DNA of 64,000 bases from Asanoa sp. WMMD1127 (lineage in GTDB: Bacteria; Actinomycetota; Actinomycetes; Mycobacteriales; Micromonosporaceae). The stretch spans positions 186,001 through 250,000 of the forward strand of contig NZ_JARUBP010000001.1 in NCBI RefSeq assembly GCF_029626225.1, written 5' to 3'. Below, in pieces: positions 43,873-50,120 of the stretch. The position numbers were made by a program, and so were the translations under genes. Below the pieces are notes generated by a model. That model saw only the letters and a program-made list of their open reading frames with translations. It did not search any database and was not told the origin of the DNA. Numbering within the stretch: position 1 is the stretch's first letter; every line of letters starts with the position of its first letter.

Positions 43873-45216
43873 GTGACCGCCACCGCCACCGCGCCCTCCG
43901 CCACCCTCTTCGACCGCCGCCACGCGCTGGCCACGACCGGCGCGACCAGCCTGGTCTTCCTGGCCGCGTTCGAGGCGTTGGCGGTCACCACGGTGATGCC
44001 GGCGATCACGGACGACCTCGACGGACGCTCGCTCTACGCGCTGGCGTTCGTGGCCACCACCGCGGCCAACGTGGTCGGCAGCGTCGCGGCCGGCGCCTGG
44101 GCCGACCGCCGCGGGCCGCGCCGGGCGCTGCTGGTGGCGATCGCCGTCTTCGCGCTCGGCCTGGCCGTGGCGGGCACGGCCACCAGCATGACGGTCTTCG
44201 TGGTGGGCCGGTTGCTGCAGGGGTTGGGCGCCGGCGGCATCACGGTCGCGCTGTACGTGGTCGTCGCCGGGCTCTTCCCGGCCGCGCTGCACCCGCGGAT
44301 CTTCGGGCTGTTCGCCGCGGCCTGGGTGGTGCCGTCGATGGTCGGCCCGTTCGTGGCCGGTCTGGTGGCCGACGCGTGGAGCTGGCACTGGGTGTTCCTC
44401 GGCGTGCTGGTGCTGGTCGCGGTCGCGACGCTGGTGATCCTGCCCGTGCTGCGGGTCGCCGTCGCGCCGTCGGGCGACGGCTCGCCCCGGGCCGGCCGGC
44501 GGATCGCCGCGGCGGCCGTGGTCGCCGTCGCCGCCGTGGTCGCGGGCGTGTCGAGCGAGCTGCCGGACGCCCGGGGCTGGCTGTTGCTGGCGGTCGCCGG
44601 CGCGGTCGTGGTCGCCACCGTCCGCGCGCTGCTGCCGCCCGGCACCCTGCGGGCCCGGCCCGGTCTGCCCGGCGCGGTGCTGCTCAGCGCCGCCGCCGGC
44701 GCCACCTTCTTCAGCACCGAGGTCTATCTGCCGCTGCTGCTGCACGACCGCTACGGGTTGCCGAGCTGGCTGTCCGGCTTCACGCTGACCGTCGGCGCGA
44801 TCGCCTGGGCGACCGGCTCCCACGTGCAGGGCCGGCTCGGTTGGCCCGCGCAGCGCGTGCTCCGGCTCGGCGCCCTGCTCCTGGCCACCGGCGCCGCCGC
44901 CGAGCTCGCCACCGCCCTGATCACGCCGCACTGGGTGTTCGTCGGCGCCGGCTGGCTGCTGGCCGGCGGCGGGATGGGCCTGATGTATCCCCGCGTCTCG
45001 ACCCTGGTGCTGGCCGCCTCGGCGCCGGGCACCCAGGGTTTCAACACAGCCGCCAAGAGCATCGCCGACGTGGTGGGCGCCAGCCTGGCGCTCGCGCTGA
45101 CGGGCCTGCTCTTCCAGTCACTGGCCGGCGTCGGCGCCTGGTGGTCCTTCGCCGGCACCCTCACCCTCTCGACGCTCTTCGGCGCGGCCGCCGTCACCGT
45201 CGCCCGCCGCGTCTAG
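43873..45216 (+). CDS. MFS multidrug efflux transporter
   Basis: The 447-residue protein starts at GTG 43873. It has about 12-14 membrane helices and MFS motifs VTTVMPAITDDLDG, GAWADRRGPRRALLVAIAVFALGLAVAG, GRLLQGLGAGGITVALYVVVAGLFPAALHPR and VPSMVGPFVAGLVADAWSWHWVFLGV. It is a drug:proton antiporter by family. The MerR-type promoter upstream suggests induction by its substrate. The stop overlaps that of the convergent gene by 4 bp. Confidence 0.9.
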   Translation: MTATATAPSATLFDRRHALATTGATSLVFLAAFEALAVTTVMPAITDDLDGRSLYALAFVATTAANVVGSVAAGAWADRRGPRRALLVAIAVFALGLAVAGTATSMTVFVVGRLLQGLGAGGITVALYVVVAGLFPAALHPRIFGLFAAAWVVPSMVGPFVAGLVADAWSWHWVFLGVLVLVAVATLVILPVLRVAVAPSGDGSPRAGRRIAAAAVVAVAAVVAGVSSELPDARGWLLLAVAGAVVVATVRALLPPGTLRARPGLPGAVLLSAAAGATFFSTEVYLPLLLHDRYGLPSWLSGFTLTVGAIAWATGSHVQGRLGWPAQRVLRLGALLLATGAAAELATALITPHWVFVGAGWLLAGGGMGLMYPRVSTLVLAASAPGTQGFNTAAKSIADVVGASLALALTGLLFQSLAGVGAWWSFAGTLTLSTLFGAAAVTVARRV

Positions 45217-45671
45217 GACGCGCGGGACCGGTAGGACTCGAGGACGGCTGTCCAGCCGCCGTCGGCGGCGAAGCGGGCGTGGTCGGCGGTCTGGTCCGCG
45301 TGCCAGCCGCTGTGTTCGAGGCGCACGTCGGTGGCCGAGCCGTCCGGGGTGAAGCTCACGTCGACCAGGGTCGCGCCCGGGGTACGCAGTCCGTGCGTCC
45401 AGCTCAGCGCCACCCGGGCCGACAGCTCCCAGATGCCGACCTCGCCCCAGCCGTGCTCGGCGCCGTCCCGCGCCCGCTCGTAGATCCGACCGCCGACCCG
45501 GGACTCGAGCACCACGGCGGCCAGCGCGTCGCCGCTCGCCGTGAACGCGGGCGGCCACCAGTCGCCGATCTTGGCCGTGAACAGGTCGAACGCCTCCGTC
45601 GGCCCGACCGGCACGACCAGCTCGCGGACGATCGGCGGCAGCGCCGAATCCTCGTACCCCCGGCTCGTCAT
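45213..45671 (-). CDS. SRPBCC/AHSA1-type activator-of-Hsp90 homology domain protein
   Basis: The 152-residue protein has the SRPBCC/AHSA1 pattern: IVRELVVPVGPTEAFDLFTAKIGDWWP, ESRVGGRIYERARDGAEHGWGEVGIWELSARVALSWTH and TDVRLEHSGWHADQTADHARFAADGGWTAVLESYR. These small cytosolic proteins bind hydrophobic ligands; the function here is unknown. Confidence 0.88.
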   Translation of the reverse strand: MTSRGYEDSALPPIVRELVVPVGPTEAFDLFTAKIGDWWPPAFTASGDALAAVVLESRVGGRIYERARDGAEHGWGEVGIWELSARVALSWTHGLRTPGATLVDVSFTPDGSATDVRLEHSGWHADQTADHARFAADGGWTAVLESYRSRAS

Positions 45672-45768
45672 GATCCGTTTCTCCCCTGCTTTCGGCTTTC
45701 ACCAGACTGCCAGTCCGGGGCGTGCGACGCTGGCCAGAGCCAGAGGCCAGCCCCAGGTGGAGGTTCCG

Positions 45769-46998
45769 ATGACCAGAATCGGCGCCAAGGACGAGCTGTT
45801 CGGCGCGCACACGCTGCGAACCATGGGGCACGCCCCCTACGGCGGTGCCGACATCGGTGAATGTCTGGCCACGCTGGCCCGGGTCCAGGGCACCGACCTC
45901 TCCAGTTGGTACGGCGAGTGGACGCTGACCGCCAACCGCGTGCAGGCGCTGGCCGAGGCGGAGGAGACCGCCGGGCACGTGGAGAGCGCGCGGCTGGCCT
46001 ACTGGCGGGCGTCGAACTACTTCCGCAACGCCGGGACGATGCTGCTCGGGGCCCCGCTCGACCGGCGGGCCGTCGAGGCCAACCTGCGGCAGACCGATGC
46101 CTTCCGGCGCGGCGCCCAGCTGATGCCCTCGCCGCCGCGGCAGGTGGAGATCCCGTGCGGCGACACCACTTTGCCCGGTTACCTGTTCCGGAGCGAGGGC
46201 CCGGCGGGCGACCGGCCGATGCTGATCGCGCTCGGCGGCTACGACGGCACGGCCGAGGAGAACTACTTCTTCAACGGGGCGGCCGCGCTGGCCCGCGGCT
46301 ACGACGTGCTGACCTTCGACGGGCCCGGGCAGGGCGCGGCGCTGCTGCAGCGCGGCATGGTCATGCGGCCGGACTACGAGAACGTGATCACCCCGGTGGT
46401 CGACTTCGTGCTGCAGCAGACGGGGGTCGACCCCAACCGGATCGCCCTGGTGGGCCTGAGTCTCGGTGGCTATCTCGCGCCGCGGGCGGCCAGCGGCGAG
46501 CACCGGCTGGCGGCGTGCATCGCCGACGGGGGCCAGTACGACCTGTTCGACGCCGTGCTGCAGCGGATGCCGGCTCCGGTCGCGCGCGGGTTCGCCGAGG
46601 GACGCTCGTCGTCGGCGGCGATGCTCCGCCGGGTGCTGCGCGGGATGGAGCGGCGGCCGACGGCGGGCTGGTCGCTGCGCCGCGGCCAGCTCGTGCACGG
46701 CGCGGCCGACTCGGTGACCTACCTCGACATGCTGCGCGACTACACGCTCAAGGGCCGGGCCGGGCGGATCACCTGCCCGACGCTGGTCTGCCACGCCGAG
46801 TCCGACCCGCTGGGCGCCCAGGCCCCGGAGCTCTACGACGCGCTGACCGGTCGCAAGGAGCTGATCACCTTCACGGTGGCGGAGGGCGCGGGCGACCACT
46901 GCGAGGCGGGCGCTCGTACGCTCTTCCACGCGCGCGCCTTCGGCTGGCTCGACTCGATCCTGCGCCCGGCCCAGGTGCTGAGCGGCAGCGGCTACTAG
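45769..46998 (+). CDS. Alpha/beta-hydrolase (FrsA/DUF1100-like, 2,6-dihydropseudooxynicotine-hydrolase type)
   Basis: The 409-residue protein starts at ATG 45769 (GGAGG 5 nt upstream). Residues 1-130 form a helical cap typical of this group ([16 protein letters not shown]). The hydrolase core has [28 protein letters not shown], the nucleophile elbow GLSLGG (Ser about 230), [11 protein letters not shown] (acid) and [11 protein letters not shown] (His about 376). Relatives cleave C-C or ester bonds in diverse compounds. The TAG stop is shared with the target site of the IS5 element: an element base now supplies the final G, so the protein is unchanged. Confidence 0.88.
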
Positions 46999-47909
46999 GC
47001 CGTGTTTCGTAGGGCTCGGAGCCATTGGTTGATGGCCGCGATGGTCAGGGTGGCTTCGTAGCGCACGGCGAGTTTGTCGTACCTGGTGGCCATGGCGCGG
47101 TGGTGTTTGAGCTGGTTGATGCCGCACTCGACGGCGTGACGCGCCCGGTAGAGGTTGGGGTCGAAGGCGGGCGGACGGCCGCCCTTGGAGCCCTTGGCCT
47201 TACGGTGTTCGTCTTGGTCGGTCTTGCTCGGGATGCAGGCTCGGATGCCGCGGCGGCGCAGGTGGGCGCGGTTGGCTGCGGAGGTGTACGCCTTGTCTGC
47301 CAGGACGGTGTCCGGGCGGGTCCGGGGCCGGCCGCCATCGGCGCGCGTGACACGCACTTTGGCCAGCACGGGGATGAACTGAGGGCTGTCGCCGCGTTGG
47401 CCGGCGGTGACTATCGCGGCCATTAGTTTGCGGCCCTGCTCGCAGGCCAGATGGGTCTTGGTGGTCCAGCCGCCCCGGGACCGGCCGAGCGCGTGATCTG
47501 CCGGCTCGCTCTGCGTTCCGCCGGGCGGCTCCTTCTGCCCGTCACCGTCGCGGCGGGCGCCCGCGGCGTGCTGATGGGCGCGGCTGATGGTGGAGTCCAC
47601 GCTCACCGTCCAGCCGATCAACCCGGCCGCGTCCGCCCGGGCCTGCAACACCGCCAGAATCTGCGCCCAGACCCCGTCGCGCTGCCAACGGCGGAACCAT
47701 CGATACAGCGTCTGCCACGGCGGATACACCGCCGGAACGTCTCGCCACGGCGAGCCGGTCCGGACCCGCCACCGGATCCCGTCGATGATCATCCTCATGG
47801 TCCATTTGCGGGGCTGATCACGACCGGTTCCCGCCGGCAACGGCGGTTCGAGCACCGCCCACTGCACGTCGGTCAGGTCATGTCGCCTCACTGCCGCTAC
47901 GCTCGGCAC
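46995..47909 (-). CDS. IS5-family transposase, single intact frame
   Basis: The 304-residue DDE transposase starts at GTG 47909 after GGAG. Motifs: [16 protein letters not shown] and [32 protein letters not shown] in the N-terminal part, first Asp in [17 protein letters not shown] (about 104), second Asp in [20 protein letters not shown] (about 203) and Glu in [32 protein letters not shown] (about 261). Many relatives need a frameshift between two frames; here it is one frame. The stop TAG is made from the target TA plus the flanking C, so the element does not carry its own stop. Confidence 0.95.
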
Positions 47910-48018
47910 GAGGTCTCCGGTGTGAAGTTCTAGCTTGGTCGCTGAACCAACTACCGGAGACCTCTTCAGTTATCGATCACCGACACGCCGCAGCATCGAC
48001 GCCCTACGAAACACGACC
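46998..48018 (-). mobile_element. IS5-family (IS427-like) insertion sequence
   Basis: The ends are an 18-bp inverted repeat with one mismatch: GGCCGTGTTTCGTAGGGC at 46998-47015 and, on the minus strand, GGTCGTGTTTCGTAGGGC at 48018-48001. TA (46996-46997 and 48019-48020) is the direct target repeat, within CTAG on both sides, as expected for this IS group. One transposase gene fills the element. Removing the element and one TA rejoins GGCTACTAGCCCGG, in which the stop codons of the two flanking convergent genes overlap. Confidence 0.92.
47911..47963 (-). promoter_or_regulatory. Inverted repeat that covers the transposase ribosome site
   Basis: AGGTCTCCGGT (47911-47921) and ACCGGAGACCT (47953-47963) form a perfect 11-bp stem around 31 nt. 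The arm next to the gene contains the GGAG site, 1 nt from the GTG. An RNA started outside the element would include both arms and hide the site; one started in the loop would not. Confidence 0.7.
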
Positions 48019-48437
48019 TAGCCCGGCCCGGCCTCGTGGCCGCGGCGGCCCTTGGTGCGCCGGCGCTCCTTCATCTCCGCCTCGAAGATGTGCTTCCGCC
48101 CGTCCGCCAGCTGGTCGCGGGCCCGGGCCTCGAGGTCGCGGAACGTCGCGTAGTAGCCCTCGTCGTAGTCCTCGACGATCTGGTAGGTCCACCGGCCCTC
48201 GATGACGTTGCGCCCGATCAGCTCGTCGCGGACGGCGTCGGCGAGCGCGTCGTGGCCCGCCTTGCGCAGCAGGTCGACGGCCTCGTCGAGCATCAGGTCG
48301 GCGTGGCCGGTGAGCTGGTGCAGGGAGTAGAGATGGCCGCGGACCCGCTCGACCGTCTCCAGCGCCTCGCTGAGCTTGCCGAGGGCGGCCACGGTGTCGT
48401 CGTCGAGTCCGGGCGGACGTTGATGCCGGTCGGTCAC
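48018..48437 (-). CDS. Conserved actinobacterial helical protein, unknown function
   Basis: From GTG 48437 the product has 139 residues, mostly helical and charged: LDDDTVAALGKLSEALETVERVRGHLYSLHQLTGHADLMLDEAVDLLRKAG, RDELIGRNVIEGRWTYQIVEDYDEGYYATFRDLEARARDQLADGRKHIFEAEMKERRR. The RWTYQIVEDYDEGYY segment looks strongly conserved. I recognise it as a hypothetical type found in many actinomycetes but know no function. Cytosolic. Its TAG stop lies in the right CTAG of the IS5 insertion and remains intact. Confidence 0.8.
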   Translation of the reverse strand: MTDRHQRPPGLDDDTVAALGKLSEALETVERVRGHLYSLHQLTGHADLMLDEAVDLLRKAGHDALADAVRDELIGRNVIEGRWTYQIVEDYDEGYYATFRDLEARARDQLADGRKHIFEAEMKERRRTKGRRGHEAGPG

Positions 48438-48522
48438 GATCTCGTTCCTACCCCACCGAGGCGCCGACAATGCCGGCGGTGGAGCCGCCCGTCGGGGCGA
48501 CTCCACCTCGGCTGACGCTGGG

Positions 48523-49212
48523 TCAGGCCGCGTGCTTGCCGCGGCGACGGACACGGGTGGCCGCGACCACCACGGCGCCCCCGGCGAGCAGCACCAGGCC
48601 GCCCGCGACGACCGGGACCGGGTCGGGACCCGGGGTGACCGGCAGCTGGCCGCCGGGCACGGTCAGGTTGTCGACCGACGCCACGTCGTTGCCGGCGCCG
48701 GGCATGCTCTGCTCCGCGACGATCTTGTAGCGGCCGGGCCGCAGGGCCGGCGAGATCTGGCACGACCACCAGCCGTTCTGGGCCACGGTCGTGGTGCAGC
48801 GGCCGGCCGGGCTGGCGTCGCTCTCCGGCTGCTTGTTGTTCCAGTTGCCGTTGTTGGCGGGTCCGTTGCCGGGCCCGTTGCTCGGACCGTTGCCCGGGCC
48901 GTTGTTGGCGGGCCCGTTGCCCGGACCGTTGTTGGCCGGGCCGTTGTTGGCCGGGCCGTTGCCGGGACCGTTGTCCCCCGGGCGGCCGTTCCAGTGGTGG
49001 TTGCCGTTGTTGCCCTGACTGATCGCCTCGACCGCGACCCGGGCACCCGGCCGGCCCAGGCCCTTGACGGTCGGCGAGTTCGAGATGGTCGCGCCGCTCT
49101 GCGGACTGGTGATCTGGAACCCAGTGCCGTCCGCGAAGGCCGGCGCACCCAGCACCAGCCCGACTCCGACCACAGCCGCGCCCAAGCCCACCCTCGTGCG
49201 CAGTTTCCCCAT
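48523..49212 (-). CDS. Secreted surface protein with Asn/Gly/Pro repeats and C-terminal membrane anchor
   Basis: The 229-residue protein has a signal peptide (VGLGAAVVGVGLVLGAPAFA), a short beta domain (GFQITSPQSGATISNSPTVKGLGRPGARVAVEA), then about 50 residues of GPGNGPANN-type repeats, a second beta domain with two cysteines (GRCTTTVAQNGWWSCQISPALRPGRYKIVAEQ) and a C-terminal helix ending RVRRRGKH. The tail resembles a wall-anchoring signal, but the usual LPxTG-type motif is replaced by LPVTPGP, so sortase anchoring is doubtful. The repeat is likely a flexible spacer through the wall. Confidence 0.83.
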   Translation of the reverse strand: MGKLRTRVGLGAAVVGVGLVLGAPAFADGTGFQITSPQSGATISNSPTVKGLGRPGARVAVEAISQGNNGNHHWNGRPGDNGPGNGPANNGPANNGPGNGPANNGPGNGPSNGPGNGPANNGNWNNKQPESDASPAGRCTTTVAQNGWWSCQISPALRPGRYKIVAEQSMPGAGNDVASVDNLTVPGGQLPVTPGPDPVPVVAGGLVLLAGGAVVVAATRVRRRGKHAA

Positions 49213-49352: not shown

Positions 49353-50120
49353 ATGGTGACCGACACCCGGCCCCACGCGCTGACGCGGCGCCAGGCGGCC
49401 GACATCGCCGCGACCGAGCTGCGGGCGTTCGGCGCCGCGATGGCCTCCCTCGACGACACCGACTGGGTGCGGGCCACGGACTGCTCCGAGTGGACGGTCA
49501 AGGACGTCGTGGCACACGTCTGCGGCCAGTACGAGGAGATCGCCAAGCCGACCGTCCTGCTGCGCCGGCTGCGCGTCGCGAAGCGGCGCTACCCCGACCG
49601 GACCGCGCTCGACGGCCACAACCAGGTGCAGCTCGACGACCTGGGCAAGCTGTCCCCACGCGCCCTCTTCGACCGGCTGGCCCGCCTCGGCCCGGTGGCG
49701 ATCCGCCGGGCCCGGCTGATGCCCGGCCTGTTCCGCCGGATCTCGACGGACCGGTTCTTCCCCGACGGACCGACGATGGTCGAGGCCAACCTCGGCTACC
49801 TGGTCGACGTGATCCTGCCGCGGGACACCTGGATGCACCGACTCGAGCTGGCCCGCGCGACCGGACGCGTGTTCGACGTGGACGACCACGACTACGAGAT
49901 CGTCGGCCAGGTGGTCCGCGACCTCGACCGGGCCTGGCAACGCCCGCCCCTGCGGCTGGAGCTGACCGGACCGGCCGGCGGCCTCTGGGAGCTCGGCGAC
50001 GGCCCACCGGTCGAGTCGGTCACCGCCGACACGATGGCGATGATGCTGCACCTCTCCGGCCGCGACGGCGTCGACCTGCCGAAGGACAGCCCCCTCGAAG
50101 CCGCGCGCGTGGTGTTCTAG
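49353..50120 (+). CDS. Maleylpyruvate-isomerase/DinB-like (TIGR03083-type) mycothiol-related protein
   Basis: ATG 49353 lies 8 nt after AGGAGG. The 255-residue protein has the DinB/MDMPI N-terminal bundle: TRRQAADIAATELRAFGAAMASLDDTDWVRATDCSEWTVKDVVAHVCGQYEEI (His about 56), and PRDTWMHRLELARATG (His about 168), the usual metal-site region. The C-terminal part (RPPLRLELTGPAGGLWELG, DTMAMMLHLSGRDGVD) is an SCP2-like lid seen in this family. Mycothiol-dependent chemistry is common in the family but the substrate is unknown. Confidence 0.88.
   Translation: MVTDTRPHALTRRQAADIAATELRAFGAAMASLDDTDWVRATDCSEWTVKDVVAHVCGQYEEIAKPTVLLRRLRVAKRRYPDRTALDGHNQVQLDDLGKLSPRALFDRLARLGPVAIRRARLMPGLFRRISTDRFFPDGPTMVEANLGYLVDVILPRDTWMHRLELARATGRVFDVDDHDYEIVGQVVRDLDRAWQRPPLRLELTGPAGGLWELGDGPPVESVTADTMAMMLHLSGRDGVDLPKDSPLEAARVVF

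Follow-up and report, generated by a model that had tools for sequence, protein, structure and literature searches.

An IS5-family insertion sequence in a CTAG shared by the stop codons of two convergent genes in Asanoa sp. WMMD1127

The insertion sequence (IS) IS870 has Agrobacterium vitis as its host. Its CTAG target is needed for the stop codon of its large open reading frame, as stated in the title of its 1993 description (Fournier, Paulus and Otten 1993, J. Bacteriol. 175:3151; title cited in PMC6471742). A comparable arrangement exists in the IS481 family, where the transposases of ISLxc2 and ISLxx4 from Leifsonia xyli stop within the NCTAGN host site, according to the text available from PMC2516522. 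Independently of mobile elements, four tetramers (CTAA, TTAA, CTAG and TTAG) have been listed as able to end two convergent genes (PMC2174442, available in part). Here, we describe a 1021-bp IS5-family insertion sequence of Asanoa sp. WMMD1127 located at a CTAG that serves two convergent genes as their common stop. It lies in a stretch of 64,000 nucleotides (contig NZ_JARUBP010000001.1, positions 186,001 to 250,000 of the forward strand), subsequently designated the window, to whose numbering the coordinates refer unless another locus is named.

The explanation we favour, with a probability of about 85%, is insertion into a YTAR target (Y, pyrimidine; R, purine) within a pre-existing convergent gene overlap, with the choice of site explained by the genome-wide background. 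A DDE transposase of the IS5 family would have put the element into a CTAG that already formed the 4-bp overlap of both genes; the enzyme would select YTAR, CTAG most often, and duplicate the central TA. Since the first base of the element is a purine and its last a pyrimidine, YTAR would arise again at each flank and a TAG or TAA stop present in the target would be rebuilt on either strand. As the transposase frame stays open up to the element's final base, YTAR would also provide the transposase with TAG or TAA. The outcome at this site would hence need no recognition of genes. The observation is correct and the mechanism known.

The element, its site and the three stop codons

The following features meet at the site.

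46998-48018, minus strand (that of the transposase): IS5-family insertion sequence, 1021 bp, delimited by inverted-repeat ends and by four near-identical genome copies (98-100%) with equal limits
46995-46998, no strand: left CTAG, containing the hydrolase TAG (plus strand, 46996-46998) and the transposase TAG (minus strand, 46997-46995)
48018-48021, no strand: right CTAG, containing the TAG of the helical-protein gene (minus strand, 48020-48018)
46996-46997, no strand: TA target duplication, left copy, from the sequence and the unequal outer tetramers of 28/91 insertions
48019-48020, no strand: TA target duplication, right copy, on the same evidence
46998-47015, plus strand: terminal inverted repeat at the 3' end of the transposase gene, GGCCGTGTTTCGTAGGGC, from the sequence and an inverted-repeat search
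48001-48018, minus strand: terminal inverted repeat at the 5' end of the transposase gene, GGTCGTGTTTCGTAGGGC, from the sequence and an inverted-repeat search
46995-47909, minus strand: transposase, 304 aa, GTG start, stop supplied by the target, from the frame list, Pfam and NCBIfam
45541-46998, plus strand: alpha/beta hydrolase gene ending in the left CTAG, with a match to Pfam Abhydrolase_6 and orthologues in 5/5 congeners
48018-48554, minus strand: conserved (helical-protein) gene ending in the right CTAG, with orthologues in 5/5 congeners

TA borders the element at both ends, and across the two junctions the letters read GGCTA C, TA, GGCCGTGTTTCGTAGGGC ... GCCCTACGAAACACGACC, TA, G CCCGG. 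The C of the left CTAG is position 46995 and the G of the right CTAG position 48021, the span 46995-48021 comprising the element together with both tetramers. The terminal inverted repeats GGCCGTGTTTCGTAGGGC and GGTCGTGTTTCGTAGGGC are 18 bp long; with CTAG included, the ends are 95% complementary over 21 nt. Three open frames end in TAG here, namely those of the hydrolase, the transposase and the helical-protein gene. The transposase is encoded by a single continuous frame, whose product matches NF033580 (IS5 family) with an E-value of 1.4e-75 and 254 bits (cut-off 110) as well as PF13340, PF01609 and PF13586 above their cut-offs. This frame is open through the outermost base of the element, and its TAG combines the C of the flank with the duplicated TA.

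The first-pass annotation had proposed an IS5-family element inserted exactly into CTAG, a transposase lacking a stop codon of its own and a single 4-bp site yielding three TAG stops, both convergent ones preserved. The domain matches confirm the family, and the sequence and frame list contain the three stops as described. Silence of the insertion for both neighbours, likewise proposed, holds at the level of the reading frames; the insertion presumably leaves the neighbours unaffected. As to the latter, the true start of the hydrolase is probably near 45769, as counted from its translation, while searches of Pfam and NCBIfam with the product of 48018-48554 returned no match at an E-value of 0.001.

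Empty sites, further copies and the length of the duplication

The hydrolase and helical-protein genes are adjacent in all five other genomes of the genus (G001-G005), and none of these five carries the 1021-bp element at the site. An empty CTAG, anticipated by the first-pass annotation, is present in G004 and G005, with both TAG stops and the 4-bp overlap; a third congener, G002, has CTAA at this position, again with both stops (TAA and TAG). In G001 the site reads CTGA, the hydrolase ending in TGA and the other gene in TAA. The convergent-stop arrangement thus predates the insertion, since empty or related sites in congeners retain the overlapping stops of the neighbours.

In G003 a 39-bp palindrome is found between two TAs, with outer bases left over from an earlier CTAA (G003:C73:19221-19259; L244, also L175). 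The hydrolase stop is now TAG, and the outer bases would imply an earlier TAA. The palindrome is probably a shrunken miniature inverted-repeat transposable element, and within the genus this TA was probably struck at least twice, by unlike elements. Allowing up to three mismatches, the palindrome occurs a single time in the six genus genomes. Elsewhere in G003 there is a 72-bp palindrome with similar ends in TTAG (L256) and a 92-bp palindrome lacking a clean TA pair.

The genome of WMMD1127 contains four near-identical copies of the element, all in CTAG with equal ends and all with the transposase frame ending in the flank, which answers in the affirmative the earlier question of whether other copies use CTAG. 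Together with the empty sites, these copies corroborate the exactness of the insertion. One copy (L003) matches from residue 29 only and is one base longer; in another (L004), which is shorter by 13 bases, the match is split in two. Both look damaged. Eight more distant IS5-type copies with 49-55% protein identity are also in CTAG and have an internal TGA.

To this genome (13 loci) we added 3 loci from the genus, 27 new plus 40 from the family and 76 from public genome contigs, i.e. 159 loci in total. The family sample is a selected one: 300 genomes out of a larger family were searched, at most two candidates were scored per genome, matches were listed to an E-value of 1e-100, and 30 matches were taken by default plus 40 more, leaving out weaker ones. 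The search of public contigs reaches close relatives only, and 1378 plasmid records with a transposase match stand outside all counts. A transposase match was present in 158 of the 159 loci (all except L013). An inverted-repeat pair of the set quality was found in 105 of the 158, the remaining 53 being left out; 14 of the 105 repeat an insertion already counted, which leaves 91 distinct insertions. Even though the target search required only TA on both sides, all 91 targets conform to YTAR (CTAG 76, CTAA 8, TTAG 7, TTAA 0). Likewise, every one of these elements has a purine at its start and a pyrimidine at its end (G...C 72, A...T 18, G...T 1). The 18 A...T elements would change TAG to TAA and still keep a stop.

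The tetramers able to end two convergent genes, as given in the available part of PMC2174442, are exactly YTAR and hence equal the target set of these elements, TTAA being the one not seen among the 91 insertions. Owing to this identity, every 4-bp convergent overlap is a possible target by sequence.

Had four bases been duplicated, CTAG in this case, as in IS5 itself, the element would measure 1019 bp and the stops would simply have been copied along with the target. With G...C ends at CTAG both readings predict identical letters, and 63 of the 91 insertions, including the four copies of the host genome, fit either one. Descriptions of other elements point the same way: CTAG repeats of 4 bp are given for the actinobacterial IS5 element ISMysh01 (PMC9241763, available in part), and a duplicated CTAG or YTAA for MITEPsy1 (PMC3189936, available in part). 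However, 28/91 distinct insertions carry outer tetramers that are not alike on the left and the right, and each of these would require a later mutation after a 4-bp duplication. L129 and L130, for instance, are insertions of the same element in one genome; L130 has CTAG at either end, L129 has CTAG on the left and CTAA on the right. We therefore reject the 4-bp duplication, which is hardly tenable in view of these insertions, and retain the duplication of TA put forward in the first-pass annotation.

Frequency of double convergent stops among CTAG sites

The double convergent stop had been singled out as the notable part of the case. To obtain a background, 60 evenly spaced 20-kb stretches of the WMMD1127 genome (1.2 Mb; L184-L243) were analyzed, in which a codon-usage script called 1176 genes at 90% coding. 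Of the 194 convergent pairs there, 32 overlap by exactly 4 bp. CTAG as such is scarce, with 323 occurrences versus 1173 expected from trinucleotides (3.6 times rarer). Classification of 321 CTAGs yielded 21 double convergent stops, 79 single stops, 60 sites inside genes and 161 intergenic sites; the number of double stops stayed at 20-21 over gene-score cut-offs from 8 to 30. The density is 0.056 per kb inside genes versus 1.35 between genes, i.e. about 24 times lower inside. Given that genes very seldom contain CTAG, which is common between them and at their ends, gene-blind use of CTAG would strike double stops about 6 times in 100.

For the insertions, context was counted after leaving out 4 of the 91 with less than 200 bases of flank on one side (3 of them in CTAG). 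The 73 remaining CTAG insertions comprise 3 double stops (L001, which holds the copy of the window, L031 and L141), 25 single stops, 10 sites inside genes and 35 intergenic sites. Compared with genome-wide CTAG, there is no excess of double stops (3/73 vs. 21/321, odds ratio 0.61, p 0.59) or of any stop (28/73 vs. 100/321, p 0.27), and no significant difference for sites inside genes (10/73 vs. 60/321, p 0.40). Extending the comparison to all YTAR sites gave the same picture, with double stops at 3/87 insertions and 32/706 background sites (p 1.0). By this measure, the double convergent stop does not stand out.

The competing idea is a preference of the element for stop codons, convergent or otherwise, or a selection that mainly retains copies at gene ends. 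It can draw on the window copy itself and on the double-stop insertions L031 and L141 in other genomes, and also on the 39-bp palindrome that occupies the same TA in G003. Several points weigh against the background explanation. Among 170 CTAGs in the insertions' own flanks, 1 is a double stop, 15 are single stops, 39 lie inside genes and 115 are intergenic, so that any stop is more frequent at the insertions (28/73 vs. 16/170, p 3e-7) and double stops tend to be so (3/73 vs. 1/170, p 0.08, a weak difference). Moreover, the background comes from one genome with genes called by a codon-usage script, whereas the insertions come from many. The own flanks are short, about 0.2-2.5 kb per side, and genes are often cut in them; for this reason, and with 115/170 CTAGs called intergenic, the own-flank control probably undercounts stops, which makes the genome-wide background the more trustworthy of the two. 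Against that background a preference for stops finds no excess in any of the three classes, and the window has two further CTAGs with double convergent TAG stops, at 45213-45216 and 50117-50120, neither of which carries an insertion. A preference for stop codons, or preference or selection for gene ends, is disfavoured and rather improbable. The question raised earlier, whether convergent stops are over-represented at insertions, is answered in the negative by the genome-wide background, while in the own-flank control any stop is commoner and the double stop weakly so.

Taken together, the data favour YTAR insertion into a pre-existing overlap, with a target choice that appears to be blind to genes. 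The site illustrates how a high-GC actinobacterium may suffer little from IS5-type elements targeting CTAG or YTAR: inside genes CTAG is rarer by the factor given above, 100 of 321 CTAGs contain one or two stops, and the element ends rebuild stops. It also calls for caution in annotation, as such transposase genes lack a stop of their own and the flank decides where the frame ends.

Transposase stops, the leader hairpin and described relatives

With element ends set from the inverted repeats, the transposase stop is provided by the target in 21 of the 91 insertions, by the element itself within its last 60 bases in 65, and by an earlier stop in 5. The commonest own stop (23/65), TGA, lies 12 bases from the end, inside the terminal repeat, where the element of the window has CGA. 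In a tree of 86 transposases the label own or target stop needs 7 changes, and at least 5 when only well-supported branches are considered. Use of CTAG does not differ significantly between target-ending and own-stop insertions (20/21 vs. 55/65, p 0.28). The expectation that copies have no internal stop thus holds for the element of the window, whose stop is target-made in 4/4 copies, and fails for the wider set, in which 65/91 insertions have their own. It is conceivable, albeit on balance doubtful, that own and target stop represent an evolutionary switch thrown at least five times, mostly through the single TGA/CGA codon of the terminal repeat, while YTAR and the purine...pyrimidine ends were kept, and that the match between YTAR and the double-stop set is an adaptation. 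In that event, target choice and element ends together would make insertion at gene ends translation-neutral on both strands.

The region upstream of the transposase gene contains one further feature.

47910-47964, minus strand: leader hairpin with perfect 12-bp arms GAGGTCTCCGGT / ACCGGAGACCTC, directly upstream of the transposase GTG

GGAG in the 3' arm is probably the Shine-Dalgarno sequence. In 82/91 distinct elements, CTCCG occurs in an arm of the leader's longest perfect inverted repeat; such an arm is missing in the eight distant copies L005-L012 and in L025. A 129-nt stretch here has an RNA folding z-score of -3.8, and the arms hardly vary. The hairpin may keep translation of the transposase low or shield it from outside transcripts. 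Of note, the loop contains a CTAG (47930-47933), a possible self-target inside the element, which is missing in some relatives, e.g. L014 and L017.

As an Actino-pnp RNA (RF01688) the hairpin was rejected, scoring 23.4 bits versus a gathering cut-off of 47.7. A weak resemblance over the full model exists at 47909-47965 on the minus strand (the 23.4 bits just given), in L089 (2437-2492, 26.1 bits) and in L051 (927-982, 25.0 bits). At E-values up to 1, weak matches were obtained in 2 of 14 loci, L001 not being one of them, and a search of the host genome at E-values up to 10 gave seven places with none of the four copies among them. The resemblance is likely due to chance, as 8 of 14 control genomes also show weak matches (E-values up to 10). 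The host has an Actino-pnp match above the cut-off (56.3 bits), which precedes a frame that is pnp-like as judged by its sequence; GGTC..CGGTAGT is common to this match and the leader hairpin.

Regarding classification, the element has the terminal inverted repeats and the short TA-centred duplication of the IS5 family. Within that family, it resembles the IS427-like group in its DDE transposase domains, the TA-centred duplication and the YTAR target. Two transposase frames are consistent with this group according to the available part of PMC9241763; in contrast, the element of the window has the single frame of 304 aa, and for this reason we use the name to denote likeness only. ISMysh01 of Mycobacterium shottsii is similar, as it too is actinobacterial, belongs to the IS5 family and has CTAG at each end; it differs in the 4-base repeats with which it is described (PMC9241763, available in part). 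ISLxc2 and ISLxx4 share the transposase stop in the host insertion site, but belong to the IS481 family and duplicate the six bases NCTAGN (PMC2516522, available in part). The 4-bp convergent gene overlaps of PMC2174442, as far as available, correspond to our element in that their tetramers are the YTAR set. For the insertion of an element into a convergent double stop, no paper was found in the open-licence literature among the matches listed, judged by title or opening of the abstract. IS870 is among the closest known systems, a CTAG-made stop recurring here in 4/4 copies of the host genome and in 21/91 of the wider insertions, yet it is another element from another host. As the first-pass annotation had stated for some IS5-group elements, and as the 1993 title on IS870 and the available text on the IS481-family elements document, the principle of the target-derived stop is already known, and the site in WMMD1127 is a clean example of this known mechanism.
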